Positions 7,327 through 32,918 of a stretch of 64,000 bases of DNA are shown piece by piece. This DNA comes from Paramesorhizobium salinisoli. Lineage in GTDB: Bacteria; Pseudomonadota; Alphaproteobacteria; Rhizobiales; Rhizobiaceae. The translations under genes were made by a program, and so were the position numbers. The notes under the pieces were generated by a model. That model had not been told where the DNA came from. It was given only the letters and a program-made list of their open reading frames with translations, and did no database searches. The stretch spans positions 310,001 through 374,000 of the forward strand of contig NZ_QOZG01000002.1 of the NCBI RefSeq assembly GCF_003335045.1. The letters run 5' to 3'. Within the stretch, counting starts at the first letter, position 1. The number at the start of each line of letters is the position of its first letter.

Positions 7327-7982
7327 CGGAATCAACTGACGGGCTGCAGATGCCCGCTTATAGGTAACATCATCCGCGCCTTTGGTGGTGCGGATGAGCC
7401 AGCACCACGAGTCACGACCAAGACGCCTCTGTAGCGAACCTGACACACCCAGAACTGCTCGAGAGCCGCCCGACGCTTGCACCTATAACGGTCCCTCCAC
7501 AGGTTCGGGAGGCCGATACGATAAGATCGGCCGATTGTCATCCCGGAGAACGCCCTGAGCGGCGGGCAGAGAACCGCAACTTGCTCCGGGAGAGCTCACA
7601 GAAGCACCTAGTCGTCTCGATAGGTCACTAATTCTTATCGACTTTCTGGAGGCAAAGAACATCGGGGCAAACCAGCTCTTAAAGCAACCGAAACCACCGC
7701 ATTCCTACCATATATGCCAAGCGACATCATTGTCTTCAGACAGAAGACTGCATCTACTTTCCGTTCTTTCAAGTAAGCACTGCAATCGGAAATTACGCAT
7801 ATATTCAGTATATTGCCAAAAAAATTCAAGTTAACAATAAATTTTTATAGAGATAATATTGTATAAGATTGAATTAAATTATAGCCATTTCGAGATAAAT
7901 GTTCTCTTTATGATTCGACCAATAATTTGGTGGAAGCAAATAAAGTGTCGTTGAGTTGCGAAGAAGCACTGAAGAGGGAATG
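7327..7982. other. Long non-coding interval, AT-rich promoter region of the autotransporter
   Basis: No supported gene is seen. The first part (to about 7620) has ordinary GC content and includes a 7-bp hairpin (GGTGGTGC ... GCACCAC) near 7384-7410, possibly ending the RidA-like transcript. From about 7770 to 7945 the sequence becomes strikingly AT-rich with many TpA steps and A/T runs, unlike the rest of the window. This is where the promoter of the giant autotransporter must lie. AT-rich adhesin promoters are known targets of MucR/Ros-type silencers in Brucella; a site here is inferred, not shown. Confidence 0.6.
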
Positions 7983-10900
7983 ATGCGGCAAATCCTTAGA
8001 GCTCCGATCAGCAATGTGGCTGATGTCGATTTGCTTTCTTTCAAGGCCGGCTCACGGCAGCCGAATAAGCAAGACCAGATTTATGGCCTGAGGCGGAACA
8101 CGCTCTCGCGCTTTTTCCGTGCGGCACTGGCAACGACATCAGCGATCGCGCTTGTCCAGGCGCTGATGTTCGTGGCGTCGAAACCGGCTGCAGCGCAGAC
8201 AACGAACTGGAATGGCAGTCAGGACAGTAACTGGTTCAACCCAAATAATTGGAGCAATGGCGCGCCAAACAGCTCTATGGCAGCCTATATCGATAACAGC
8301 ACCAGAAATCCGGTCATTATTGCCACCCCCGGTGCCTTAGCGGGCGCTACGATGGTCCCGCGCACCGGTACCGGCGTCAGCCTGAGGATTGAGGGCGGCG
8401 GCACGTTGACGTCGAGCAGCATTGCCCGCATCGGCGATCTTGCCGGCTCCGCCGGTGCTGCGACGGTGACGGGGACAGGTTCCACATGGACCGTCAATTT
8501 TACAGGCTCGGACGAGTCTTTCGTGATAGGCGCCGTTGGAACAGGCACACTGGACATCACCAGCGGCGGTTCTGTCGTCGTCATACAGGACACGATGCTT
8601 GGCCGGGCGACAGCCGGCAAAGGTACGCTGAATATATCGGGTGGTGGAACGCTGGAAACCACAGCGCTCAAGCGCGGTGGGTCCACGGTTGCCAACGGCG
8701 TTCAGGCCAATTTCAATGGCGGCATTCTGAAGGCGCATGCCAACAACACGAACTTCATCAGCGGCTTCAGAAGCGGTGAGCTCAATCTTCAGTCAGGCGG
8801 GCTGACCATCGACAGCAACGGCTTTAATGTCTCTACCGCCTCCCCTTTCAGCGGTACTGGCGGGCTGACGAAGACCGGCGCAGGCACGCTGACGCTGACC
8901 GGTGCCAGCACCTTTACAGGCGACACGACCGTCAATGGCGGCACCCTCACCCTCAATGCCGCCTCTATCACGCCCGGCAAAGTTTTCGTCGGAAACGCTG
9001 CCGGTGCCTCGGGCAATCTGGTGGTCGAGAACGGCAGCACGATAACCAACAGCAGCTATGTGCGCATCGCGGAAGTTGCGGGGTCGACGGGCGTCGCCAC
9101 GATAAGGGGCGGCTCGACCTGGACGATCAACAACAACATCGCGCTCATCGTCGGCAATTCCGGCGACGGCACGCTGAATATCGATGGCGCCGGCACCTCC
9201 GTCACCACCACCAACGGCGGATACACCATGGTGGGTTCTTCTGCCTCCGGCAAGGGCACGCTCAACATCACCGGTGGCGGCAAGCTGACGACGGCCGGAG
9301 ATGCAACGATCGCCGCGAGCGCAGGCTCTACCGGAACGGTGAAGGTTGACGGCAACGGCTCGTCATGGGAAATGGCGGGCCTCAACATCAGCGTGAACAG
9401 TTCCGGGGCGACGACCCCGAAATCGAACGGATCGCTGACGATTTCCAATAACGCCACCGTCACGACGAAGACCTCAGGCGCCGTCGTCGGCAATTATGGT
9501 ATCGGCTCTGTCGATATCAAAACCGCTGGCAAGCTCAATACGGCGGGCGTCACAACGATCGGCAACTTCCCCTCGGGCGAGGGAACCGTGACGATCGACG
9601 GCACCGGCTCGAAATGGACCAGCGCGTCCAATGTCGGCATCGGCAACGCCGGCAAGGGCACTCTGACCGTTCAGAACAATGGCGAGATGGTCGTGACCAG
9701 CGGTTATACCTCCGTTGGCGATCGCGCGGCCGGGACGCTGAATATATTGAGCGGCGGCATGGTGACATCGACCGGAGACGCCTTTCTCGGCGGCAATCAG
9801 GCGAATACGGCTTTTGGCGGCGGGGGATCCGGAACCGTCCTCGTCTCAGGGGCAGGCTCGCTGTGGGGCATAACGGGCGCGCTCTATGCCGGCTACAATG
9901 GAGCCGCGGCCAAGGGTGATCTAACGATCGATAACCAGGGCGAGGTGACGGTAGGCGGCGCTCTCGTGGTGGGCAACATCGCCAATGGCACCTCGACGAA
10001 TTCTGTAACCGTCCAGAGTGGTGGCACCCTGACGGCGGGCGTTGGGAGGATCGGCGGCCCTGGATCCACCGGAAAGGGGGGCACGGGCAGCGTAACCATC
10101 GATGGTCCCGGCTCGCAATGGAATGTTGCCGGAACTCTATGGGTCGGCGCTTCGGGCAGCGCGACCAATCCTGGCAATGGCACGTTGACAATTTCCAACA
10201 ATGGCGCTGTTACAACAGGCGATTATTTCACCGTCGGCGAGGTGGCCAATACGCAAGGCGTTCTCCGTATAGAAAGCGGTGGTACGCTCACCGTTAACAG
10301 CGCTGCGTATGGCGCGATCATCGGCAACGTAACGGGGTCCGTCGGCACCGCGACCGTCACGGGAACCGGCTCGCAACTCACCAACAATGAACGGCTTTAT
10401 GTCGGCCGTCTCGGCACCGGTACGCTCAATATCGAGAACGCCGGTACGGTTACGGCGACCAGTGGCACGAGTGTTGCGACCGAAGCTGGTTCCAGCGGCA
10501 CGCTCAATGTCAACGGCGGCGCCAATGGCGCTGGTGTGCTCGAGACAACCGTATTGTTGCGCGGGGCAGGCACGACAGCGCAAGTGAAGTTCGACGGTGG
10601 TGTATTGCGTGCACTCGCCAGCAATACCAATTTCATTTCCGGGTTCACTGGTTCGCAATTTGAGATAGCGTCTGGTGGGATGGTTGTTGACACGGCCGGG
10701 TTTGATGTGGCGACGGCGGCGGGGAACGTGGTTTCCGGCGCGGGGACGCTGACGAAGGTGGGCGCGGGGACGCTGACGCTTTCCGGTGCGAACACGTTTT
10801 CGGGCGGGCTGACGGTCAATGGCGGGACGGCTGCGGCGGGGGCTGCCGGTGCGTTCAGCTCGGGGCTTTTGACGGTCGCCGACGGTGCGACGGCGGATCT

Positions 10901-13900
10901 GGCCGGTTTCGACCAGACGGTTTCGGGGCTTGCCAGCCCGGGCACGGCGGGCACGGCCAGCATCAGGCTCGGCGCGGGGAGGCTGACGGTCGACCAGGCG
11001 ACAGGGACGAGCTCGAGCTTTGGCGGCGTGATCTCGGGCACCGGCGGCCTTACCAAGGCGAATGCCGGCACGCTGACGCTTTCGGGCAACAACAGCTATA
11101 CGGGGACGACGACGGTTTCGGGCGGCACGCTTGTGGTCAATGGCAACCAGTCGGCGGCGACGGGGGCGGCGACGGTTGCGAGCGGCGCGACGCTTTCGGG
11201 CGCGGGCACGCTCGGCGGGTCGGTGTCCGTGGCCTCCGGCGGCACGCTTTTGTCGCGCAACGACGCCACGGGGGGCATCGCGCTCAACATCAACGGCAAC
11301 CTGACACTGGCATCGGGAGCCAACCTTGATTACGCCTTCGGCACCACGCCCAATGCGGATCCCGACGGCCTGCTGGTCGATGTCGTCGGCAATGTCGATC
11401 TCGGCGGCGCTACGCTCAATGTCTCGGGCAGCGGCTTCGATCCCGGCGGCGTCTATGGCCTGATCGAATATACCGGCACGAAGAGCGGCAATCTGGTTGC
11501 GGGCACGATCCCCGCCGGCCTCTATGTGCAGACGGCGATGGCAAACCGCGTCAACCTTGTCAACACCAACGGGCTTGGCGCCTTCAGCTTCTGGGACGGT
11601 GCCGGAAATGCCGGTAACGGCCTGATCGACGGCGGCGACGGCGTGTGGCAGGGCGATGCGTTCGGCGCGAACCAGAACTGGCTGGAGGCCACCGGCGTGA
11701 CCAACGGCCCCTTCAAGGGCGGCCCCGCCATCTTCGGGGGCACAGCCGGCACGGTGCAGGTGGACAACAGCCAGGGTGCGATCGTCGTCTCCGGCATGCA
11801 GTTCATGGCCGACGGCTACATTCTCGACGGTCTGACGCCGGGCGACATGATCACGCTCACCCCCGCGACCGGCGGCCAGGTCGAGATCGCGGTCGGCGAC
11901 AAGAACAGCGTCCCCTATACGACAACCATCAATGCCGGGCTCACGGGCACGGCCGAGCTTGTGAAGACGGATGCCGGCACGCTGGTGCTGACCAATGCGG
12001 GCAACAATTACACCGGCGGCACACGCATCGAGGACGGTACGCTTTCGATCTCGGCCGACGGCAATCTCGGCCAGGCGGGAACGCGCATCACCTTCGACGG
12101 CGGCACGCTGCAGAACACGACAACGGCGTTTTCCACGACGCGTCCGGTGACGCTCGAGGCGGGCGGCGGCACGTTTGAGACCGATGTCGACCTGACGCTG
12201 TCGGGCATCGTCGACGGCGCAGGCGCGCTGACGAAGACAGGCGCCGGCAATCTGACCCTGAACGGCGCCAACACCTATGGCGGCGGGACGACGGTCGATG
12301 CCGGCACGCTGACTGCCGGCTCCGCCACAGCCTTCGGCGCGGCATCGGGCGTGCTCACCGTCAATGGCGGCACCGCCGATCTCAACAGCCATTCCATGAC
12401 ACTGGCCGGCCTTGCCGGAACCGGCGGCACGGTCGCGCTTGGTTCGGCGGCGCTGACGCTCAACCAGGCGGGCACCAGCAGCTATTCCGGCGTCATCTCA
12501 GGCGCCGGTGGCAGCCTGACCAAGAGCGGCGCGGGCAACCTGACGCTGTCGGGCGCCAATAGCTATAGCGGCGGGACGACGGTGACGGCCGGCGCGCTGA
12601 CAGCAGGCTCGACCTCCGCCTTCGGCTCGGGCGTGCTCACCGTCAATGGCGGCACCGCCGATCTCAATAACAACTCAATGACACTGGCTGGACTTGCCGG
12701 AACCGGCGGCACCGTATCGCTTGGCTCGGCAACGCTGACGCTCAACCAGGGGACCAACAGCAGCTATGCCGGCAATGTGACCGGCGCCGGCGCGCTGGTG
12801 AAGAATAGCGCCGGGGAGTTGACGCTGTCGGGCGCCAACACCTTTGCCGGCGGTCTGACGGTGAACGACGGCACGGTGAAGGCCGGCTCCGTCAGCGCCT
12901 TCGGCGCGGCATCGGGCGTGTTGACCGTCAATGGCGGCATCGCCGATCTCAACAATTACAGCATGACGGTCGCCGGCCTTGCCGGAACCGGCGGCGAAGT
13001 CAAGCTGGGTACCACCCTCTCTGGCTCGACGCTGACGGTCAACCAGGCGGGCACCAGCAGCTATTCGGGCACGATCACGGGCACCGGCAGCCTGGTCATG
13101 TCAGGTGCGGGCACGTTGACGCTTGCCGGCGCCAACACCTTCTCCGGCGGCCTGCGGGTCAACAATGGCGACGTGATCGCCGGCTCCACCACAGCCTTCG
13201 GCTCGGGCGTGCTGACCGTTAACGCCGGCACCGCCGATCTCAACAACAATTCCATGACGCTCGCCGGCCTTACCGGTAATGGCGGCAATGTCACGCTCGG
13301 CTCGGCCATCCTTACCCTCGACCAGACGACCACCACCACCTCGCACTCGATCATCTCCGGCACCGGCGGCATCGTCATGAACGGCAGCGGCGAGCTGACG
13401 CTTGCCGGCGCCAACACCTTCTCCGGCGGGGTGACAGTCGCCGCCGGCACCGTCAAGGCCGGCTCCGCCTCGGCCTTCGGCGCGGCATCGGGCGTGCTCA
13501 CCGTCAATGCCGGCACCGCCGATCTCAACGGGTTCGACACCACGCTCGCCGGGCTTTCCGGCACCGGCGGCACGGTCATGCTCAATGCCGCCACGCTGAC
13601 GCTCGCCCAAAACGGCACCTCCAGCTATGCCGGCCAGGTCACCGGTTCGGGCGGCCTCGTCATGGACGGTACCGGCACCCAGACCCTTTCGGGCAACAAC
13701 GATTTCACGGGCGGGGTGACGGTCACGGACGGCACGCTCAAGGCCGGCTCCGCCACCGCTTTCGGCGCGGCAACGAACATGCTCACCGTCAATGGCGGCG
13801 TCGCCGATCTCGACGGCAATTCCATGACGCTCGCCGGTCTCCAGGGCGCCGGCGGCCAGGTCACGCTCGGCGCCGCCACGCTGACCCTCGACCAGAACAC

Positions 13901-16900
13901 CGACACGATCTATGCCGGCAGCATCACCGGCGCCGGCAGCCTCGTCAAGCAGGGCACCGGCAAGCTGACGCTGTCGGGGACGAGCACCTATGGCACGACC
14001 AGTGTCGATGCCGGCACGCTGCAGGTCAACGGCTCCATCACCTCGCAGACAACCGTCGATGGCGCCACCAGCATCCTTTCCGGCAGCGGCTCCATCACCG
14101 GCAACGTGACGGTGCAGAGCGCCGGCACGCTGCGCTCCTATGACGACGATGCCGACGGTCAGAACAAGCTGACCATCAACGGCAAGCTCACCGTCGATGC
14201 CGGCAGCTTCCTGCAATATGATTACGGCCACGCCCCCGACCTCGATCCAGACGTGCTGATGGTCGACGTCAACGGCGACGTCGATCTCAACGGCACAGTC
14301 AAGGTGAGCGACAGCTCCGGCGCCGGTTTCGGCCCCGGCGTCTACGGCATCGTCCATTATACCGGCACCAGGACGGGCACGCTCACGGCGGACGGCAGCC
14401 TGGCCACCTACAACCTCACCCTGCAGCAGGGCGTGGTCGCAAACCACATCAATCTCATCAATCTCGGCACCGGCGAGCGGAACTGGTGGGACCCGACCGG
14501 CGCGAACAACGACGGCACCATCAAGGGCGGTAACGGCACCTGGACAAGGGCCCAAACCGGCCCTGGCGCGGCCAGCTGGAGCACGAGCGACGGCATGCTC
14601 AAGGGGCATTACGACCCCACCTTCGCCATCTTCACCGCCAATCCCGGCACGGTGACGGTCGACAACAGCAGCGGCCAGATCGCCGTCGCCGGCATGCAGT
14701 TCACCGTCGATGGCTACACCATCCAGGGTCAGGCCATCACGCTCGACAATGCGACAGGCTACAACGGCACGACGGCGGGCGAAACCTCCATCATCGTCGG
14801 CGACCGCTCCGGCACCTCGCAGGGGCATGTCGTCACCATCGCTTCCGTGCTGCAGGGCACCGACAGGCTCGTCAAGGAAGATGTCGGCACGCTGAAGCTC
14901 TCCGGCATCAACACCTATTCCGGCGGCACCACCATCGACGATGGCACGCTGCAGATCTCCGACGACCGCAATCTCGGCGCCGCAGGCACCGACCTTACCT
15001 TCGCCGGCACCTCCGTAGTGCCCGCCACACTGCGCAACACCGCCGCCATCGTCACCTCCCGCCCGGTGACGCTCAATGGCACCGGCGGCACCTTCGAGAC
15101 GGTCGCCAACCTTACACTCAACGGCATCGTCGGCGGCCCCGGCGCGCTCACCAAGACGGGCGCGGCGACGCTGACGCTCACCGGCGCCAACCACTATGCC
15201 GGCGGCACCTTCATCAATGCCGGCACGCTCTCGGTCTCCTCCAACGGGAACCTCGGTGCCGATGCCGGCGGCATCACCTTCAATGGCGGCACGCTCGAGA
15301 ACACTGCGGCCTTCACCACGAGCGCCCGGCCGGTCATCGTCAATGCCTCCGGCGGCACCTTCAAGACCGATGCCAACCTGACGCTCGCCGGCGCGATTTC
15401 CGGTCCCGCCGGGGCAACAGGCGACCTCACCAAAACAGGCGCGGGCAAGCTGATCCTCACCGCCGACGGCAACTACTCCGGCACCATGACAGTCGCCCAG
15501 GGCGAACTGTCCTTCGGCAATGCCGGCAGCGGCGGGGCGGGCACCGCCGGCTCGATCGCCGGCCCGATCGTCAACAATGCCGCGCTCACCTTCGACCGCT
15601 CCAACGATTTCACCTATGCAGGGCTGATCTCCGGCTCCGGCACGGTGACGCAGAAGGGCCCGGGTACCACTACGCTGTCCGCCGCCAACAGCTACAAAGG
15701 CGCGACCACGGTCACCGCCGGCATGCTGCTCATCGATGGCGACCAGAGCGCGGCAACAGGCCAGACCACGGTAGCGAACGGCGGCACGCTCGGCGGCAGC
15801 GGCATCATCGGCGGCAAGGTCATGGTCGCAAGCGGCGGCACGCTTTATGCCTTCGACGATATGAACGGCATCAACACGCTCCACATCAAGGGCGATCTCG
15901 GCCTCGATCCCGGCGCCAGCCTCAACTACGATTACGGCCTCTCCCCTGCCACCGGCAACCATGACGCCCTGGCGATCAAGGTCGACGGCGCGCTCGACCT
16001 CAACGGCACCCTCAACGTCGCCAACACCTCCGGCCAGGCCTTCGACCCCGGCGTCTACGGCCTCATCCGCTACAAGGGCGCGCTGACCGGCAGCGGCCTG
16101 ACGCTCGGCACGATGCCCTCCAGCGATTTCTTCGTGCAGACCTCGGTCAACGGCCAGGTCAATCTCGCCTATACCGCCGGCGAGACCCTCAATTTCTGGG
16201 ACGGCGGCGGGACGCCCGATGACGGCACCGTCTCCGGCGGATCGGGGGTCTGGCAGGCGTCGGGCGGCAATAACTGGACGACCATCCACGGCACGATCAA
16301 CTCCGGCTATACCGACGACAGCGTGCCCGTCTTCATGGGAACGCCCGGCACCGTCACCGTCGACGACAGCCTCGGCGCCATCAGCGTCGCCGGCATGCAG
16401 TTCTTCGTCTCCGGCTATCATGTCGAAGGCGACGCCATCACGCTCACCACCGGGCGCACCCCCATCAATGTCGGCGACAACACCTCCGACAGCGCCGGCA
16501 TGAGCACCACCATCGCTTCCGAACTCACCGGCGCCGGGCAACTGGCCAAGACCGGTCTCGGCACGCTCATCCTCACCGGCGCCAATACCTACACCGGCGG
16601 CACCCTGATCGATGCCGGCACGCTGCAGGTCGCAAACGACGAGAACCTCGGCGCGGCAGGAACCCTCCTGGAACTCGACGGCGGCACGCTCGAGAACACT
16701 GCCGCGATGAGCCTTGCCCGCAACGTGGCGCTCCACGCCAATGGCGGCACCTTCGACACCGATGCCGATCTGACGATCGCCGGCCGCGTGTCCGGCGCAG
16801 GCTCGCTCACCAAGACGGGCGCCGCCAGCCTGATCCTCTCCGCCGCCACCACCTATAGCGGCGCCACCTTCGTCAAGGCCGGCACGCTTGCGGCGGGCGC

Positions 16901-18407
16901 TGCAAATGCCTTCAGCGCTGCCTCGGCCTTCACCGTCGATACCGGCGCCGCGCTCGACTTGCGCGGCCATGACCAGAGCGTCGGCGCGCTTGCCAATGCC
17001 GGTACGGTGAAGCTTGGCGACGGCACCCCCGGCACGACGCTGACCGTCAATGGCAATTATGCCGGCGATAACGGTACGATCGAGCTTGGCACAGTGCTCG
17101 AAGGCGACGACGCCAAAACCGACCGCCTGCATGTCAAGGGCACCACCTCCGGCACCACCACGCTCGCCGTCGAGAATGTCGGCGGCGGCGGCGCCCAGAC
17201 TAACAACGGCATCCGCCTCGTCGAGGTCGACGGCGCCTCAAGCGGCACCTTTACCCTTTCCGGCGACTATGTCTTCCAGGGCGACCAGGCGCTCGTCGCC
17301 GGTGCCTATGCCTACCGGCTCTTCAAGAACGGCATAGCCAGTCCCGATGACGGCGACTGGTACCTGCGGTCCAGCCTTCTCGAAGGAGATAATCCGCAGT
17401 TCCAGGCCGGTGTCCCCGTCTACGAGGCCTACGCCGGCATCCTGCAGAGCTTCAACCAGTTCGACACGCTGCAAAGCCGCCTCGGCAACCGCGCCTGGAC
17501 GATCGAGGCGCAGGGCGCCGACGGGCTCTCCGAAGAAGTTGCTCCCGAGCAGAGCCCCAACGGCCAGAGCCTCGGCGTCTGGGGCAATATCGAAGCCTCC
17601 GACCACCGCTACCGCCCTGAGCGCTCGACAAGCGACACTGATTACGACGCCTCTGTCTGGAAGATCGAGGCCGGTGTCGACGGCCAGCTCTACGAGACCG
17701 AGACCGGCAGGCTGATCGGCGGCGCCAGCCTCCATTACGGCACGATCGCCGCCGACATCGCCTCGCCCCATGGCCACGGCAAGATCGACAGTACCGGCTA
17801 TGGCATCGCCGGCACCCTCACCTGGTACGGCAATGACGGGCTCTATATCGACGGCCAGGCAAAACTCACCTGGTATGACAGCGACCTTTATTCCGACACC
17901 GCCAACCAGAGCCTCGTCTCCGGCAATGACGGCCTCGGCTACGGCCTTTCCATCGAGGCCGGCAAGCGCATTCCCATCAAGCCGGACTGGTTTATCACCC
18001 CGCAGGCCCAGCTCGCCTGGTCGAGGGTCGAGTTCGACGGCTTCTCCGACGGCTTCGACGCCGATGTCACCCTCAAGGACGGCGACAGCGTCCTCGCCCG
18101 CATGGGCCTGGCCGTCGACTACGAGAACGAATGGCAGGACAGCACCGGCCAGACCCGACGCCTCCATGCATACGGTCTTGCCAACCTCTATTACGACCTC
18201 GACAACGGAACCACCATCGACGTCGCCTCAACCCCCTTCGTCACCAAAAACGAACCCCTGTGGGGCGGCATCGGCTTCGGTGGAAGCTACAACTGGAACA
18301 ACGACAAATTCTCCATCTACGGACAGACCCTGGCAAAAACATCCCTCAACAATTTCGCAGACAGCCATGCCCTCTCCGGTAATGTCGGCTTCAGAATCAA
18401 GTGGTGA
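7983..18407 (+). CDS. Giant type Va autotransporter adhesin-like protein
   Basis: A 3,474-aa secreted surface protein. The start at 7983 has GAGGG 4 nt upstream; an adjacent ATG at 7980 and a TTG at 7956 are alternatives. The first 70 residues are an extended signal peptide: polar leader, RRNTLSRFFRAALATTSAIALVQ, then cleavage near AAAQ. The passenger begins WNGSQDSNWFNPNNWSNG. Up to about 10.7 kb it consists of GNGTLNI/GSGSxW strand-loop units of the T5SS/PEP-CTERM-associated kind. After that come PATR-like units (LTKTGAGTLTLSGANTY-like), including six 95-aa copies at 12.2-14.0 kb, and three large modules beginning near 11370, 14250 and 15970. The last ~290 residues (about 17,540-18,407) are the outer-membrane beta-barrel, ending FRIKW. 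I noticed no cysteine. Size and layout resemble Brucella BmaC-type adhesins; the adhesion function is inferred. Confidence 0.93.
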   Translation: MRQILRAPISNVADVDLLSFKAGSRQPNKQDQIYGLRRNTLSRFFRAALATTSAIALVQALMFVASKPAAAQTTNWNGSQDSNWFNPNNWSNGAPNSSMAAYIDNSTRNPVIIATPGALAGATMVPRTGTGVSLRIEGGGTLTSSSIARIGDLAGSAGAATVTGTGSTWTVNFTGSDESFVIGAVGTGTLDITSGGSVVVIQDTMLGRATAGKGTLNISGGGTLETTALKRGGSTVANGVQANFNGGILKAHANNTNFISGFRSGELNLQSGGLTIDSNGFNVSTASPFSGTGGLTKTGAGTLTLTGASTFTGDTTVNGGTLTLNAASITPGKVFVGNAAGASGNLVVENGSTITNSSYVRIAEVAGSTGVATIRGGSTWTINNNIALIVGNSGDGTLNIDGAGTSVTTTNGGYTMVGSSASGKGTLNITGGGKLTTAGDATIAASAGSTGTVKVDGNGSSWEMAGLNISVNSSGATTPKSNGSLTISNNATVTTKTSGAVVGNYGIGSVDIKTAGKLNTAGVTTIGNFPSGEGTVTIDGTGSKWTSASNVGIGNAGKGTLTVQNNGEMVVTSGYTSVGDRAAGTLNILSGGMVTSTGDAFLGGNQANTAFGGGGSGTVLVSGAGSLWGITGALYAGYNGAAAKGDLTIDNQGEVTVGGALVVGNIANGTSTNSVTVQSGGTLTAGVGRIGGPGSTGKGGTGSVTIDGPGSQWNVAGTLWVGASGSATNPGNGTLTISNNGAVTTGDYFTVGEVANTQGVLRIESGGTLTVNSAAYGAIIGNVTGSVGTATVTGTGSQLTNNERLYVGRLGTGTLNIENAGTVTATSGTSVATEAGSSGTLNVNGGANGAGVLETTVLLRGAGTTAQVKFDGGVLRALASNTNFISGFTGSQFEIASGGMVVDTAGFDVATAAGNVVSGAGTLTKVGAGTLTLSGANTFSGGLTVNGGTAAAGAAGAFSSGLLTVADGATADLAGFDQTVSGLASPGTAGTASIRLGAGRLTVDQATGTSSSFGGVISGTGGLTKANAGTLTLSGNNSYTGTTTVSGGTLVVNGNQSAATGAATVASGATLSGAGTLGGSVSVASGGTLLSRNDATGGIALNINGNLTLASGANLDYAFGTTPNADPDGLLVDVVGNVDLGGATLNVSGSGFDPGGVYGLIEYTGTKSGNLVAGTIPAGLYVQTAMANRVNLVNTNGLGAFSFWDGAGNAGNGLIDGGDGVWQGDAFGANQNWLEATGVTNGPFKGGPAIFGGTAGTVQVDNSQGAIVVSGMQFMADGYILDGLTPGDMITLTPATGGQVEIAVGDKNSVPYTTTINAGLTGTAELVKTDAGTLVLTNAGNNYTGGTRIEDGTLSISADGNLGQAGTRITFDGGTLQNTTTAFSTTRPVTLEAGGGTFETDVDLTLSGIVDGAGALTKTGAGNLTLNGANTYGGGTTVDAGTLTAGSATAFGAASGVLTVNGGTADLNSHSMTLAGLAGTGGTVALGSAALTLNQAGTSSYSGVISGAGGSLTKSGAGNLTLSGANSYSGGTTVTAGALTAGSTSAFGSGVLTVNGGTADLNNNSMTLAGLAGTGGTVSLGSATLTLNQGTNSSYAGNVTGAGALVKNSAGELTLSGANTFAGGLTVNDGTVKAGSVSAFGAASGVLTVNGGIADLNNYSMTVAGLAGTGGEVKLGTTLSGSTLTVNQAGTSSYSGTITGTGSLVMSGAGTLTLAGANTFSGGLRVNNGDVIAGSTTAFGSGVLTVNAGTADLNNNSMTLAGLTGNGGNVTLGSAILTLDQTTTTTSHSIISGTGGIVMNGSGELTLAGANTFSGGVTVAAGTVKAGSASAFGAASGVLTVNAGTADLNGFDTTLAGLSGTGGTVMLNAATLTLAQNGTSSYAGQVTGSGGLVMDGTGTQTLSGNNDFTGGVTVTDGTLKAGSATAFGAATNMLTVNGGVADLDGNSMTLAGLQGAGGQVTLGAATLTLDQNTDTIYAGSITGAGSLVKQGTGKLTLSGTSTYGTTSVDAGTLQVNGSITSQTTVDGATSILSGSGSITGNVTVQSAGTLRSYDDDADGQNKLTINGKLTVDAGSFLQYDYGHAPDLDPDVLMVDVNGDVDLNGTVKVSDSSGAGFGPGVYGIVHYTGTRTGTLTADGSLATYNLTLQQGVVANHINLINLGTGERNWWDPTGANNDGTIKGGNGTWTRAQTGPGAASWSTSDGMLKGHYDPTFAIFTANPGTVTVDNSSGQIAVAGMQFTVDGYTIQGQAITLDNATGYNGTTAGETSIIVGDRSGTSQGHVVTIASVLQGTDRLVKEDVGTLKLSGINTYSGGTTIDDGTLQISDDRNLGAAGTDLTFAGTSVVPATLRNTAAIVTSRPVTLNGTGGTFETVANLTLNGIVGGPGALTKTGAATLTLTGANHYAGGTFINAGTLSVSSNGNLGADAGGITFNGGTLENTAAFTTSARPVIVNASGGTFKTDANLTLAGAISGPAGATGDLTKTGAGKLILTADGNYSGTMTVAQGELSFGNAGSGGAGTAGSIAGPIVNNAALTFDRSNDFTYAGLISGSGTVTQKGPGTTTLSAANSYKGATTVTAGMLLIDGDQSAATGQTTVANGGTLGGSGIIGGKVMVASGGTLYAFDDMNGINTLHIKGDLGLDPGASLNYDYGLSPATGNHDALAIKVDGALDLNGTLNVANTSGQAFDPGVYGLIRYKGALTGSGLTLGTMPSSDFFVQTSVNGQVNLAYTAGETLNFWDGGGTPDDGTVSGGSGVWQASGGNNWTTIHGTINSGYTDDSVPVFMGTPGTVTVDDSLGAISVAGMQFFVSGYHVEGDAITLTTGRTPINVGDNTSDSAGMSTTIASELTGAGQLAKTGLGTLILTGANTYTGGTLIDAGTLQVANDENLGAAGTLLELDGGTLENTAAMSLARNVALHANGGTFDTDADLTIAGRVSGAGSLTKTGAASLILSAATTYSGATFVKAGTLAAGAANAFSAASAFTVDTGAALDLRGHDQSVGALANAGTVKLGDGTPGTTLTVNGNYAGDNGTIELGTVLEGDDAKTDRLHVKGTTSGTTTLAVENVGGGGAQTNNGIRLVEVDGASSGTFTLSGDYVFQGDQALVAGAYAYRLFKNGIASPDDGDWYLRSSLLEGDNPQFQAGVPVYEAYAGILQSFNQFDTLQSRLGNRAWTIEAQGADGLSEEVAPEQSPNGQSLGVWGNIEASDHRYRPERSTSDTDYDASVWKIEAGVDGQLYETETGRLIGGASLHYGTIAADIASPHGHGKIDSTGYGIAGTLTWYGNDGLYIDGQAKLTWYDSDLYSDTANQSLVSGNDGLGYGLSIEAGKRIPIKPDWFITPQAQLAWSRVEFDGFSDGFDADVTLKDGDSVLARMGLAVDYENEWQDSTGQTRRLHAYGLANLYYDLDNGTTIDVASTPFVTKNEPLWGGIGFGGSYNWNNDKFSIYGQTLAKTSLNNFADSHALSGNVGFRIKW
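12230..13990 (+). repeat. Six in-frame ~285-bp (95-aa) repeats in the autotransporter passenger
   Basis: The motif VLTVNGGTADLN-SMTLAGLAGTGG recurs with its Val/Met codon at 12351, 12633, 12918, 13209, 13494 and 13779, spacings 282, 285, 291, 285 and 285 bp. Copies are close at DNA level (shared blocks such as GCGGCATCGGGCGTGCTCAC), so unequal recombination could change copy number without a frameshift. Ends are approximate. Confidence 0.85.
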
Positions 18408-27732: not shown

Positions 27733-31515
<3,783 letters not shown>

Positions 31516-31565
31516 AGGAGAAATTACCCGCTGTGCCTGCCGATGGAAATAGTGAGCAGACTTAA

Positions 31566-31589
31566 TGACATAAAGATATGTTTATGTCA
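31566..31589. promoter_or_regulatory. 24-bp palindromic operator upstream of metH (SahR/SamR-like)
   Basis: TGACATAAA-N6-TTTATGTCA with a central GATATG gives symmetry over 24 bp with a single mismatched pair. It is 50 bp upstream of the metH start. The ATAAAGATAT core resembles, from memory, the box of the ArsR-family S-adenosylhomocysteine sensor SahR/SamR that controls methionine-cycle genes in alphaproteobacteria. The sequence symmetry is certain; the regulator identity is inferred. Confidence 0.65.
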
Positions 31590-31678
31590 ATGAAGCGCGA
31601 TGATTTCCCGGCATGGCAGAGCAACCCGCGCATCGGAGGGAAGCGCGGGGGAAGCAGGCCGACGGTGAGAGCGTCTCG

Positions 31679-31921
31679 TCAGTTTCGCAGCGGCCCCGCG
31701 AGAGTACCGATCAAAGCAAGAAACATGATCCGCAATTGATGCGGGCCTGCCAGATTGCCGCGGTAGAGGTCGAGCTTGCGCACCTCCTCGGCGGCAGCGG
31801 CGGCCATGTCGGCCTCCTTCGGCAACCAGAGGAGCCAAGAGAGAAAGACTTCCTCCGGCGTCTGTTGCACGGTGTTACGCTTTTCCGCGATCGTTTCGGC
31901 TTGTCGTTCGGCAGTACGCAT
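31679..31921 (-). CDS. 80-aa orphan protein downstream of a cobalamin riboswitch
   Basis: An 80-aa protein starting MRTAERQAETIAEKRNTVQQ and ending LALIGTLAGPLRN. It has a polar, Glu/Arg-rich N-terminal half, the segment TPEEVFLSWLLWLPKEADMA, and a short hydrophobic stretch near the C-terminus (IMFLALIGTLAG). No family is recognised and it is not CbtA/CbtB-like. The ATG at 31921 has GGGGA 5 nt upstream; the frame stays open up to 32077, but those extra residues would come from the riboswitch region. It is the first gene behind the B12 riboswitch and lies 163 bp before metH on the same strand. A B12-responsive role is inferred from this position alone. Confidence 0.6.
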   Translation of the reverse strand: MRTAERQAETIAEKRNTVQQTPEEVFLSWLLWLPKEADMAAAAAEEVRKLDLYRGNLAGPHQLRIMFLALIGTLAGPLRN

Positions 31922-32047
31922 CAAAATCCCCGATGATGGCGGCGGGGATATTCGAATGCACGCGTGCTGGAAAATGACGGCGAAAAACCATCGAGCAAGC
32001 GATACACCGGGACACCCCGCCCGTTGACCTCTGTGGACGTTTTCACG

Positions 32048-32252
32048 TCCCTTACCGGGGCAGGTCTCCTGGCTCACAGGTCATCGCCGCTGTCTGGCCT
32101 TCCCGATCCAAGTGCCGGATCAGTGGCATAAGCGACAGCAACTCGCTGCATACAGTTGCGGGGGCAGCGCCGGCCTTGCACTCCAACTGGAATGCGCACC
32201 GGCTTCCCTCTTAGCCTTCTCGCCATCTGCGACTCGAAGGAACCTCGATCGC
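32048..32252 (-). promoter_or_regulatory. Cobalamin (adenosylcobalamin-type) riboswitch
   Basis: On the minus strand the conserved core elements occur in order: GAGGTTCC, AAGAGGGAAGCCGGTGCG, the B12 box region GCTGCCCCCGCAACTGT, GCCACTG, GGGAAGGC, and the closing GTGAGCCAGGAGACCTGCC. These are the hallmark blocks of the cobalamin riboswitch (Rfam RF00174 class). A small hairpin, GGACGT-GAAA-ACGTCC, lies immediately downstream (about 32034-32049) and may belong to the expression platform. The element faces the 80-aa orphan gene and, beyond it, metH. Such riboswitches usually switch genes off when B12 is plentiful. Confidence 0.93.
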
Positions 32253-32462
32253 TCCATTAGCAATGCACGTCTTGGCCTTGTCAACAGGAAGCGGGCAAGC
32301 GGCAACGTTCAAGCATCTGTTAAATTACGGCGCAAAACGTGATTCAGGCGGCGGATTTCCGCTCGGATTCTATCATTTCCGCGCCATAATTGCCTGCGAA
32401 TGAGGCTTGAAAGGGACGATTTCCTGCGATGTGCCGTGATCCGGCGGGCAGAAGGAGGTAAC

Positions 32463-32918
32463 ATGAGAGCTCGTATTTCGGCGGTGTTCGCCGTGTTGAT
32501 GACTTTGGTTATGGGGGGGCTTTCCGGCGCGGCCGGGACGGCAAGCGCCGCTCCGCTTTCCCCCGGCAATCCGCAATCAAGCATAGCGGCGGGACCGGTC
32601 GAGAAAGTTCAGTATCGCGAATACCGGCACCGTGAATTCAGGCATGGTCCGCGGTGGCACCATCGCCGCCATTGGCGCCATCACCACAGATGGGATCGTC
32701 GCTGGGACGGCCCGCGCTGGCATCACCGCCGGCACTACCGTCCCTATTACGGCTGGGATGCGCCACGCTGGCATGCGCCGCGCCGTCATTACCGCCGCCC
32801 GGCGGGGAATGCGCATGTGCGCTGGTGCTATAACCGCTACCGCTCCTACAGGGCCTACGACAACACCTTCCAGCCGCATTACGGTCCGCGGCGCCAGTGT
32901 GTCTCGCCCTATATCTGA
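32463..32918 (+). CDS. BA14K family protein
   Basis: A 151-aa exported protein. The signal peptide is [20 protein letters not shown] with cleavage near ASA-APL. A His/Arg/Trp-rich low-complexity middle follows, with repeated RWHHRRH units. The C-terminal BA14K domain is [25 protein letters not shown]. The family is named after a 14-kDa immunoreactive, lectin-like Brucella protein. A strong AGGAGG lies 7 nt before the ATG at 32463. An intrinsic terminator follows. The preceding interval 32253-32462 holds the promoters of this gene and of the divergent riboswitch transcript. Confidence 0.9.

Follow-up and report, generated by a model that had tools for sequence, protein, structure and literature searches.

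Cobalamin (B12) riboswitch regulons are thought to comprise transporters, synthesis genes and B12-independent isozymes (PMC3766115). Short open reading frames have been described beside such elements in Mycobacterium tuberculosis, where uORFs are found at the B12 riboswitches of metE and ppe2 (PMC11260477). In Methanosarcina mazei, the small proteins MtrI and MtrR have been reported to bind the corrinoid Mtr complex (PMC12774963, PMC13370731). For the Rhizobiales, a search of the open-access literature, with subscription journals outside its scope, returned among the matches listed nothing on a B12 riboswitch before metH or on the small protein described here.

The window, a stretch of 64,000 nucleotides from Paramesorhizobium salinisoli, contains on its minus strand a full-length match to the cobalamin riboswitch aptamer RF00174 (32262 to 32042), identified using Rfam cmscan. 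The match spans the whole of the model, positions 1 to 189, and its 119.7 bits are well above the gathering score of 31.5 (E 1.9e-29). This predicted cobalamin riboswitch is the same element as that placed at 32048 to 32252 in an earlier note on this DNA, which had called for a scan with RF00174. The small ORF, P0001 (31921 to 31679, minus strand), starts 120 nt past the aptamer and encodes 80 aa counted from its ATG. After a gap of 163 bp it is followed by metH (31515 to 27733, minus strand), encoding the B12-dependent methionine synthase of 1260 aa (TIGR02082, NF007024), which scores 1742.7 bits with TIGR02082 against a cut-off of 1010.85. The aptamer is full and above its gathering score, as in known members of the B12 regulon, but the gene under its control is that of an unnamed small protein, and not a transport or synthesis gene or a known isozyme. 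There are five RF00174 sites in the genome of the window. Two of the other four stand before a gbcA/gbcB-like Rieske pair and before bluB. Another precedes an operon for a substrate-binding protein, a permease and an ATPase, which we take to be an uptake system, and the remaining one lies about 1.2 kb before what are presumably cob-type genes.

No fitting family was found for P0001 in Pfam or NCBIfam, and one annotated copy is named 'hypothetical protein' (WP_100003604.1). Even so, the small protein is not the orphan that the earlier note had supposed. Within the GTDB family 199 genomes were searched, and P0001 as the query found matches in 31 of them. A second seed matched in 26 of the 199 and added one genome, and G062 and G178 were added by profile reading of gbcA neighbourhoods, giving a known total of 34 genomes with the gene. 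It is absent from the remaining 165 and is therefore dispensable in most. An order-wide profile search identified the gene in at least 12 of 397 genomes, other families of the order included, the count being a lower bound because at most 14 candidates were scored per genome. Three candidates with weak profile scores of 17 to 19 bits (L080, L082, L083) were dropped as probable chance matches. Named genomes were also scanned and yielded 27 loci, 9 of which overlap the 199-genome set and 18 of which are new. The 27 loci are in Phyllobacterium phragmitis (84% identity), Brucella endophytica, many Shinella, Rhizobium, Mycoplana, Mesorhizobium, one record titled only Rhizobiales and, outside the order, two Rhodovibrionaceae MAGs (Rhodospirillales). 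Most of the sampling is within a single GTDB family, and no count is corrected for kinship. Matches beside gbcB at 21 to 26 bits (L079, L081, L086), two of which adjoin metH as well, were excluded from the counts because the retrieved flanks are too short to show a riboswitch. For the same reason, the riboswitch counts exclude the second copy in G382 (L085) and the first copy in G458, the riboswitch of which falls outside the retrieved sequence.

The small ORF is evidently a gene. Its dN/dS ranges from 0.033 to 0.454 over 15 pairs and is no more than 0.29 in 14 of these, indicating purifying selection at the protein level and not the ratio near 1 that the earlier note had named as evidence against a protein. 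When eight pairs are pooled, 159 of 439 synonymous sites are changed, compared with 87 of 1295 nonsynonymous sites, so the frame is more than a chance occurrence. The AlphaFold2 model, from 27 rows, suggests a three-helix fold, with a mean pLDDT of 82.1, helices at residues 22-32, 39-51 and 58-75, and block pLDDT values of 88 to 96 across residues 21-70. An N-terminal helix is uncertain in the model.

The protein search, window included, identified 34 copies in 32 genomes, and all 34 are downstream of a B12 riboswitch on the same strand. The riboswitch leads directly to the small gene in 15 of these, the gene comes after gbcA-gbcB in 18, and in one (G149) it comes after nrdA-nrdB. Linkage was established with a riboswitch profile for 33 copies and with Rfam for the window copy. 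Since this profile, which was also used for metH, for the gbcA orthologs and for the named loci, was built partly from these same leaders, an independent check was made with Rfam. In this check the riboswitches of 31 of the 34 copies are above the gathering score (that of G176 via the named record L284); it covered all copies but that of G149, the gbcA-linked one of G104 and the second one of G108. Among the named loci, a riboswitch was identified by profile in 26 of 27, with 20 in the order riboswitch-small gene-metH and 6 in the order riboswitch-gbcA-gbcB-small gene. The contig of the 27th starts inside gbcB.

The same association is seen from the side of metH. A total of 112 metH upstream regions were surveyed, that of the window and those of 111 genomes in which the first 371 MetH residues find a strong match, four of the regions being short. 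A riboswitch is present on the same strand within 1.8 kb in 10 regions, and in all 10 the small ORF lies between it and metH. G149 is an eleventh region with the small ORF, its riboswitch being further upstream, and two other regions have a riboswitch on the opposite strand. In G010, G019, G048, G121 and G141 the MetH match is in a frame of only 359 to 421 aa, and these are therefore probably not full MetH; the ten regions with a same-strand riboswitch all have full MetH frames.

A perfect palindrome, TGACATAAA-N6-TTTATGTCA, was found by pattern search before metH (31566 to 31589, minus strand), overlapping a TTGACA hexamer. With as many as 3 mismatches allowed, nothing else in the window matches, and there were no matches in 100 shuffles; the promoter scan listed no promoter at this position. 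Of 108 full-length regions, 79 have a palindrome of the form ATAAA-N4..8-TTTAT a short way in front of metH (75 with a stricter pattern), including all ten of the riboswitch-small gene-metH regions, compared with 4 of 108 for the more distant part, the first 1550 nt of the region. SahR regulons have been described as including metH among their core genes and as having a palindrome of 20 bp (PMC4239095). Likened by motif description only, the palindrome here fits a SahR site in place and form, which suggests a SahR-like metH operator and agrees with the earlier note, where metH, 163 bp beyond the small gene, was said to have its own operator. Because the small ORF is between the riboswitch and metH in 10 of 10 regions and metH has a palindrome of its own, metH appears to keep its ordinary control and the riboswitch to belong to the small gene. 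This is as the earlier note had proposed: the riboswitch goes with the small protein, whatever its neighbour, rather than with metH, and the protein is thus probably made when B12 is scarce. Of the two things the note would have had conserved across relatives, the riboswitch is retained in 34 of 34 copies, while the place beside metH is not constant, with metH following directly in 10 of 34. The small proteins are an unnamed but real family belonging to the B12 riboswitch regulon.

Control may be exerted on translation. In the window leader, folding predicts a hairpin, ATCCCCG...CGGGGAT (31949 to 31926, minus strand), in which the CGGGG of the small-ORF ribosome-binding site pairs with CCCCG just upstream. 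Such a hairpin covers the ribosome-binding site in 21 of 21 leaders, these being the window and the 20 named riboswitch-small gene-metH loci, which have the same arrangement, mostly as CCCCAATT/ATTGGGG. With 19 of the 21 leaders aligned, 92.4% of cells pair. Covariation is weak: three rows change a pair on both sides, but it is a single pair that does so, and this number of pairs is reached by 229 of 500 shuffles. The same hairpin was missing, by folding, from the leaders of G013, G116, G195 and G106 and from the oxygenase-linked L069 and L070. Its presence over the ribosome-binding site in all 21 leaders suggests a translational off-switch. Just past the aptamer, GGGCGGGG (32015 to 32022, minus strand) is complementary to CCCCGCC of the sequestor and, from this complementarity, could pair with the CCCC arm as a candidate anti-sequestor.

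The neighbours of the small gene vary and include metH, the gbcAB-like Rieske pair, nrdAB, cobF, a second oxygenase and btu-type genes. In G063 cobF is downstream, and in G149 and G458 the small gene is between nrdB and cobF, the nrdB of G149 having been checked. The second Rieske oxygenase, approximately 33% identical to the first, is directly behind the small gene at L069, L070, L223 and L269. In G382 and G333, from another family, the small gene comes after btu-type genes, behind a riboswitch, and an accessory of B12 uptake, the other suggestion of the earlier note, is conceivable. Two Phyllobacterium plasmids (L301, L302) have the order riboswitch-nrdA-nrdB-small gene-metH; in one of them metH is set off by a gap of 1.1 kb. 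A B12-independent RNR, the small gene and the B12-dependent MetH are there in a single row. No class I NrdA is above cut-off in the genome of the window, so the gene order of the window may derive from the Phyllobacterium order through loss of nrdAB.

The Rieske pair is a second recurrent company of the small gene. In the genome of the window, the riboswitch at contig C1 320651-320852 (L065) precedes a Rieske oxygenase of the GbcA/Stc2 kind and a reductase. The pair resembles the GbcAB glycine betaine monooxygenase in that its best NCBIfam matches are GbcA and GbcB, and it adjoins many copies of the small gene. It differs in falling below the curated cut-offs (518.6 of 670 and 384.3 of 500 bits), the gbcA-like neighbour thus not reaching the equivalog GbcA, and the small protein is also found in hosts without gbcA. 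By profile, a riboswitch is present at 49 of 72 gbcA orthologs, three of these at 20 to 28 bits only; the 72 have at least 66% identity, and three more distant matches, without a riboswitch, were excluded. The small gene is present in 29 of the 49 genomes with a riboswitch at gbcA and in none of the 23 without a detected one (Fisher 2.8e-7, uncorrected for kinship). In Sinorhizobium meliloti a cobalamin riboswitch is tabulated before SMc00982 (PMC2573895), which has been called a likely dioxygenase (PMC2848018). In aerobic bacteria, the GbcAB route, which needs no B12, has been described alongside a glycine betaine demethylase that depends on B12 (PMC12478193), and given these two routes a riboswitch on the GbcAB-like pair would make sense if the pair were a B12-sparing substitute. 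The order in G345, riboswitch-gbcA-gbcB-formaldehyde dehydrogenase-small gene-cobF, includes a dehydrogenase that fits a demethylase role for the pair. In rhizobia, a demethylase-like Rieske pair under riboswitch control could tie the use of methylated amines to B12 status.

An ORF placed between a riboswitch and metH might be expected to act in cis, relaying the riboswitch signal to metH by reinitiation or by blocking Rho termination, in the way of the ppe2 uORF of M. tuberculosis (PMC11260477). The mycobacterial uORFs at metE and ppe2 share with the small ORF the tie to a B12 riboswitch and a translational off-switch, predicted in the present case. The sole terminator-like site in 31400-32500 is inside the small ORF, at chance level. 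However, the protein sequence of the small ORF is conserved, the ORF lies after gbcB in 18 and after nrdB in 1 of the 34 copies, and it moves between neighbours, unlike those uORFs. Of the 18 gbcAB-small gene loci 16 were examined, and in 12 of these the first long coding-like ORF past the small gene runs on the other strand, so the small gene is often the last in its unit, which argues against a leader peptide; the two loci left out are G104 and G176, where the small gene is succeeded by a btu operon that has a riboswitch of its own. The gap of 163 bp is wider than is expected of a uORF, which would stand immediately in front of its target gene, and all ten riboswitch-small gene-metH loci have the palindrome at metH. 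A relay in cis is therefore very unlikely, and the small ORF is not a leader peptide of metH.

The earlier note had offered a modulator of MetH. When B12 is scarce, such a protein might assist reactivation or act on the apo-form. The direct succession of metH in 10 of the 34 copies of the 199-genome sample and in 20 of the 27 named loci is consistent with this, as are the two Phyllobacterium records in which metH follows the small gene after nrdAB. Yet a strong match to the first 371 MetH residues is missing in 6 of the 34 hosts (G033, G060, G062, G131, G163, G188), which have weak matches only, and in a seventh, G121, the match is only in the frame of 402 aa. A role with MetH only is for this reason unsupported, and we consider MetH modulation unlikely. 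An accessory of the oxygen-dependent stand-ins for B12 scarcity, that is the GbcAB-like Rieske oxygenase, the second oxygenase or NrdAB, would account for the 18 copies directly after gbcB, the one after nrdB and the four loci with the second oxygenase directly behind. It would also fit the distribution of riboswitches at gbcA, which is preceded by one in each of the 29 genomes that have both the small gene and a gbcA ortholog; the 23 gbcA orthologs lacking a riboswitch are all in genomes without the small gene. Against this, a gbcA match at E 1e-100 is missing in 5 of the 34 hosts (G013, G050, G116, G188, G195), the genome of the window is without class I NrdA over cut-off, and 20 of the 49 genomes with riboswitch-controlled gbcA do not have the small gene; such an accessory role is rather doubtful. 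As the sole partner of the protein, MetH and the GbcAB-like oxygenase are both excluded. A need for CobF was rejected, CobF being over cut-off in 47 of 199 genomes and not in that of the window, as was action only where MetE replaces MetH, with MetE over cut-off in 8 of 39 hosts and likewise not in the window genome. NrdJ is over cut-off in 39 of 39 hosts (the 34 and five of the order), which says little since only small-gene hosts were counted.

The reading that we favour, and regard as likely, is that of a B12-scarcity gene beside metH, with its translation switched by the riboswitch and with a product, small, soluble and of three helices, that would act in trans on B12-linked metabolism. 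With cobalamin plentiful, the hairpin would form over the ribosome-binding site and translation of the small ORF would be off; with cobalamin scarce, it would be on. Most likely the protein would tune, by binding to it, an enzyme or pathway that is common to all of the hosts and must change under B12 shortage, for which NrdJ and corrinoid synthesis or uptake are candidates. As a tentative extension, it might be a roaming effector dedicated to B12 scarcity, whose binding to a cobamide enzyme such as NrdJ, or to the machinery of corrinoid supply, would shift the cell from a B12-dependent to a B12-sparing metabolism, in the manner of MtrI guarding the corrinoid Mtr complex. MtrI and MtrR are similarly proteins of less than 100 aa linked to a corrinoid methyltransferase, although theirs is an archaeal membrane complex and the analogy is one of action only. 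A small protein that is conserved and remains under a B12 switch as the genes around it vary would add a new type of component to the B12 response.

Other features were seen in the course of the analysis. At L053 and L061, metE is convergent to the gbcAB-small gene unit and has its own riboswitch on the opposite strand, and several units of the B12 regulon are thus clustered. The cobalamin riboswitch linked to bluB has a glycine riboswitch (RF00504; L003 382-469, minus strand) at a distance of about 1 kb. In the window, an ORF rich in His, Trp and Arg and with a signal-like start (32400 to 32918, plus strand) is divergent from the riboswitch, and there is an open frame of 3483 aa at 7956 to 18407 on the plus strand.
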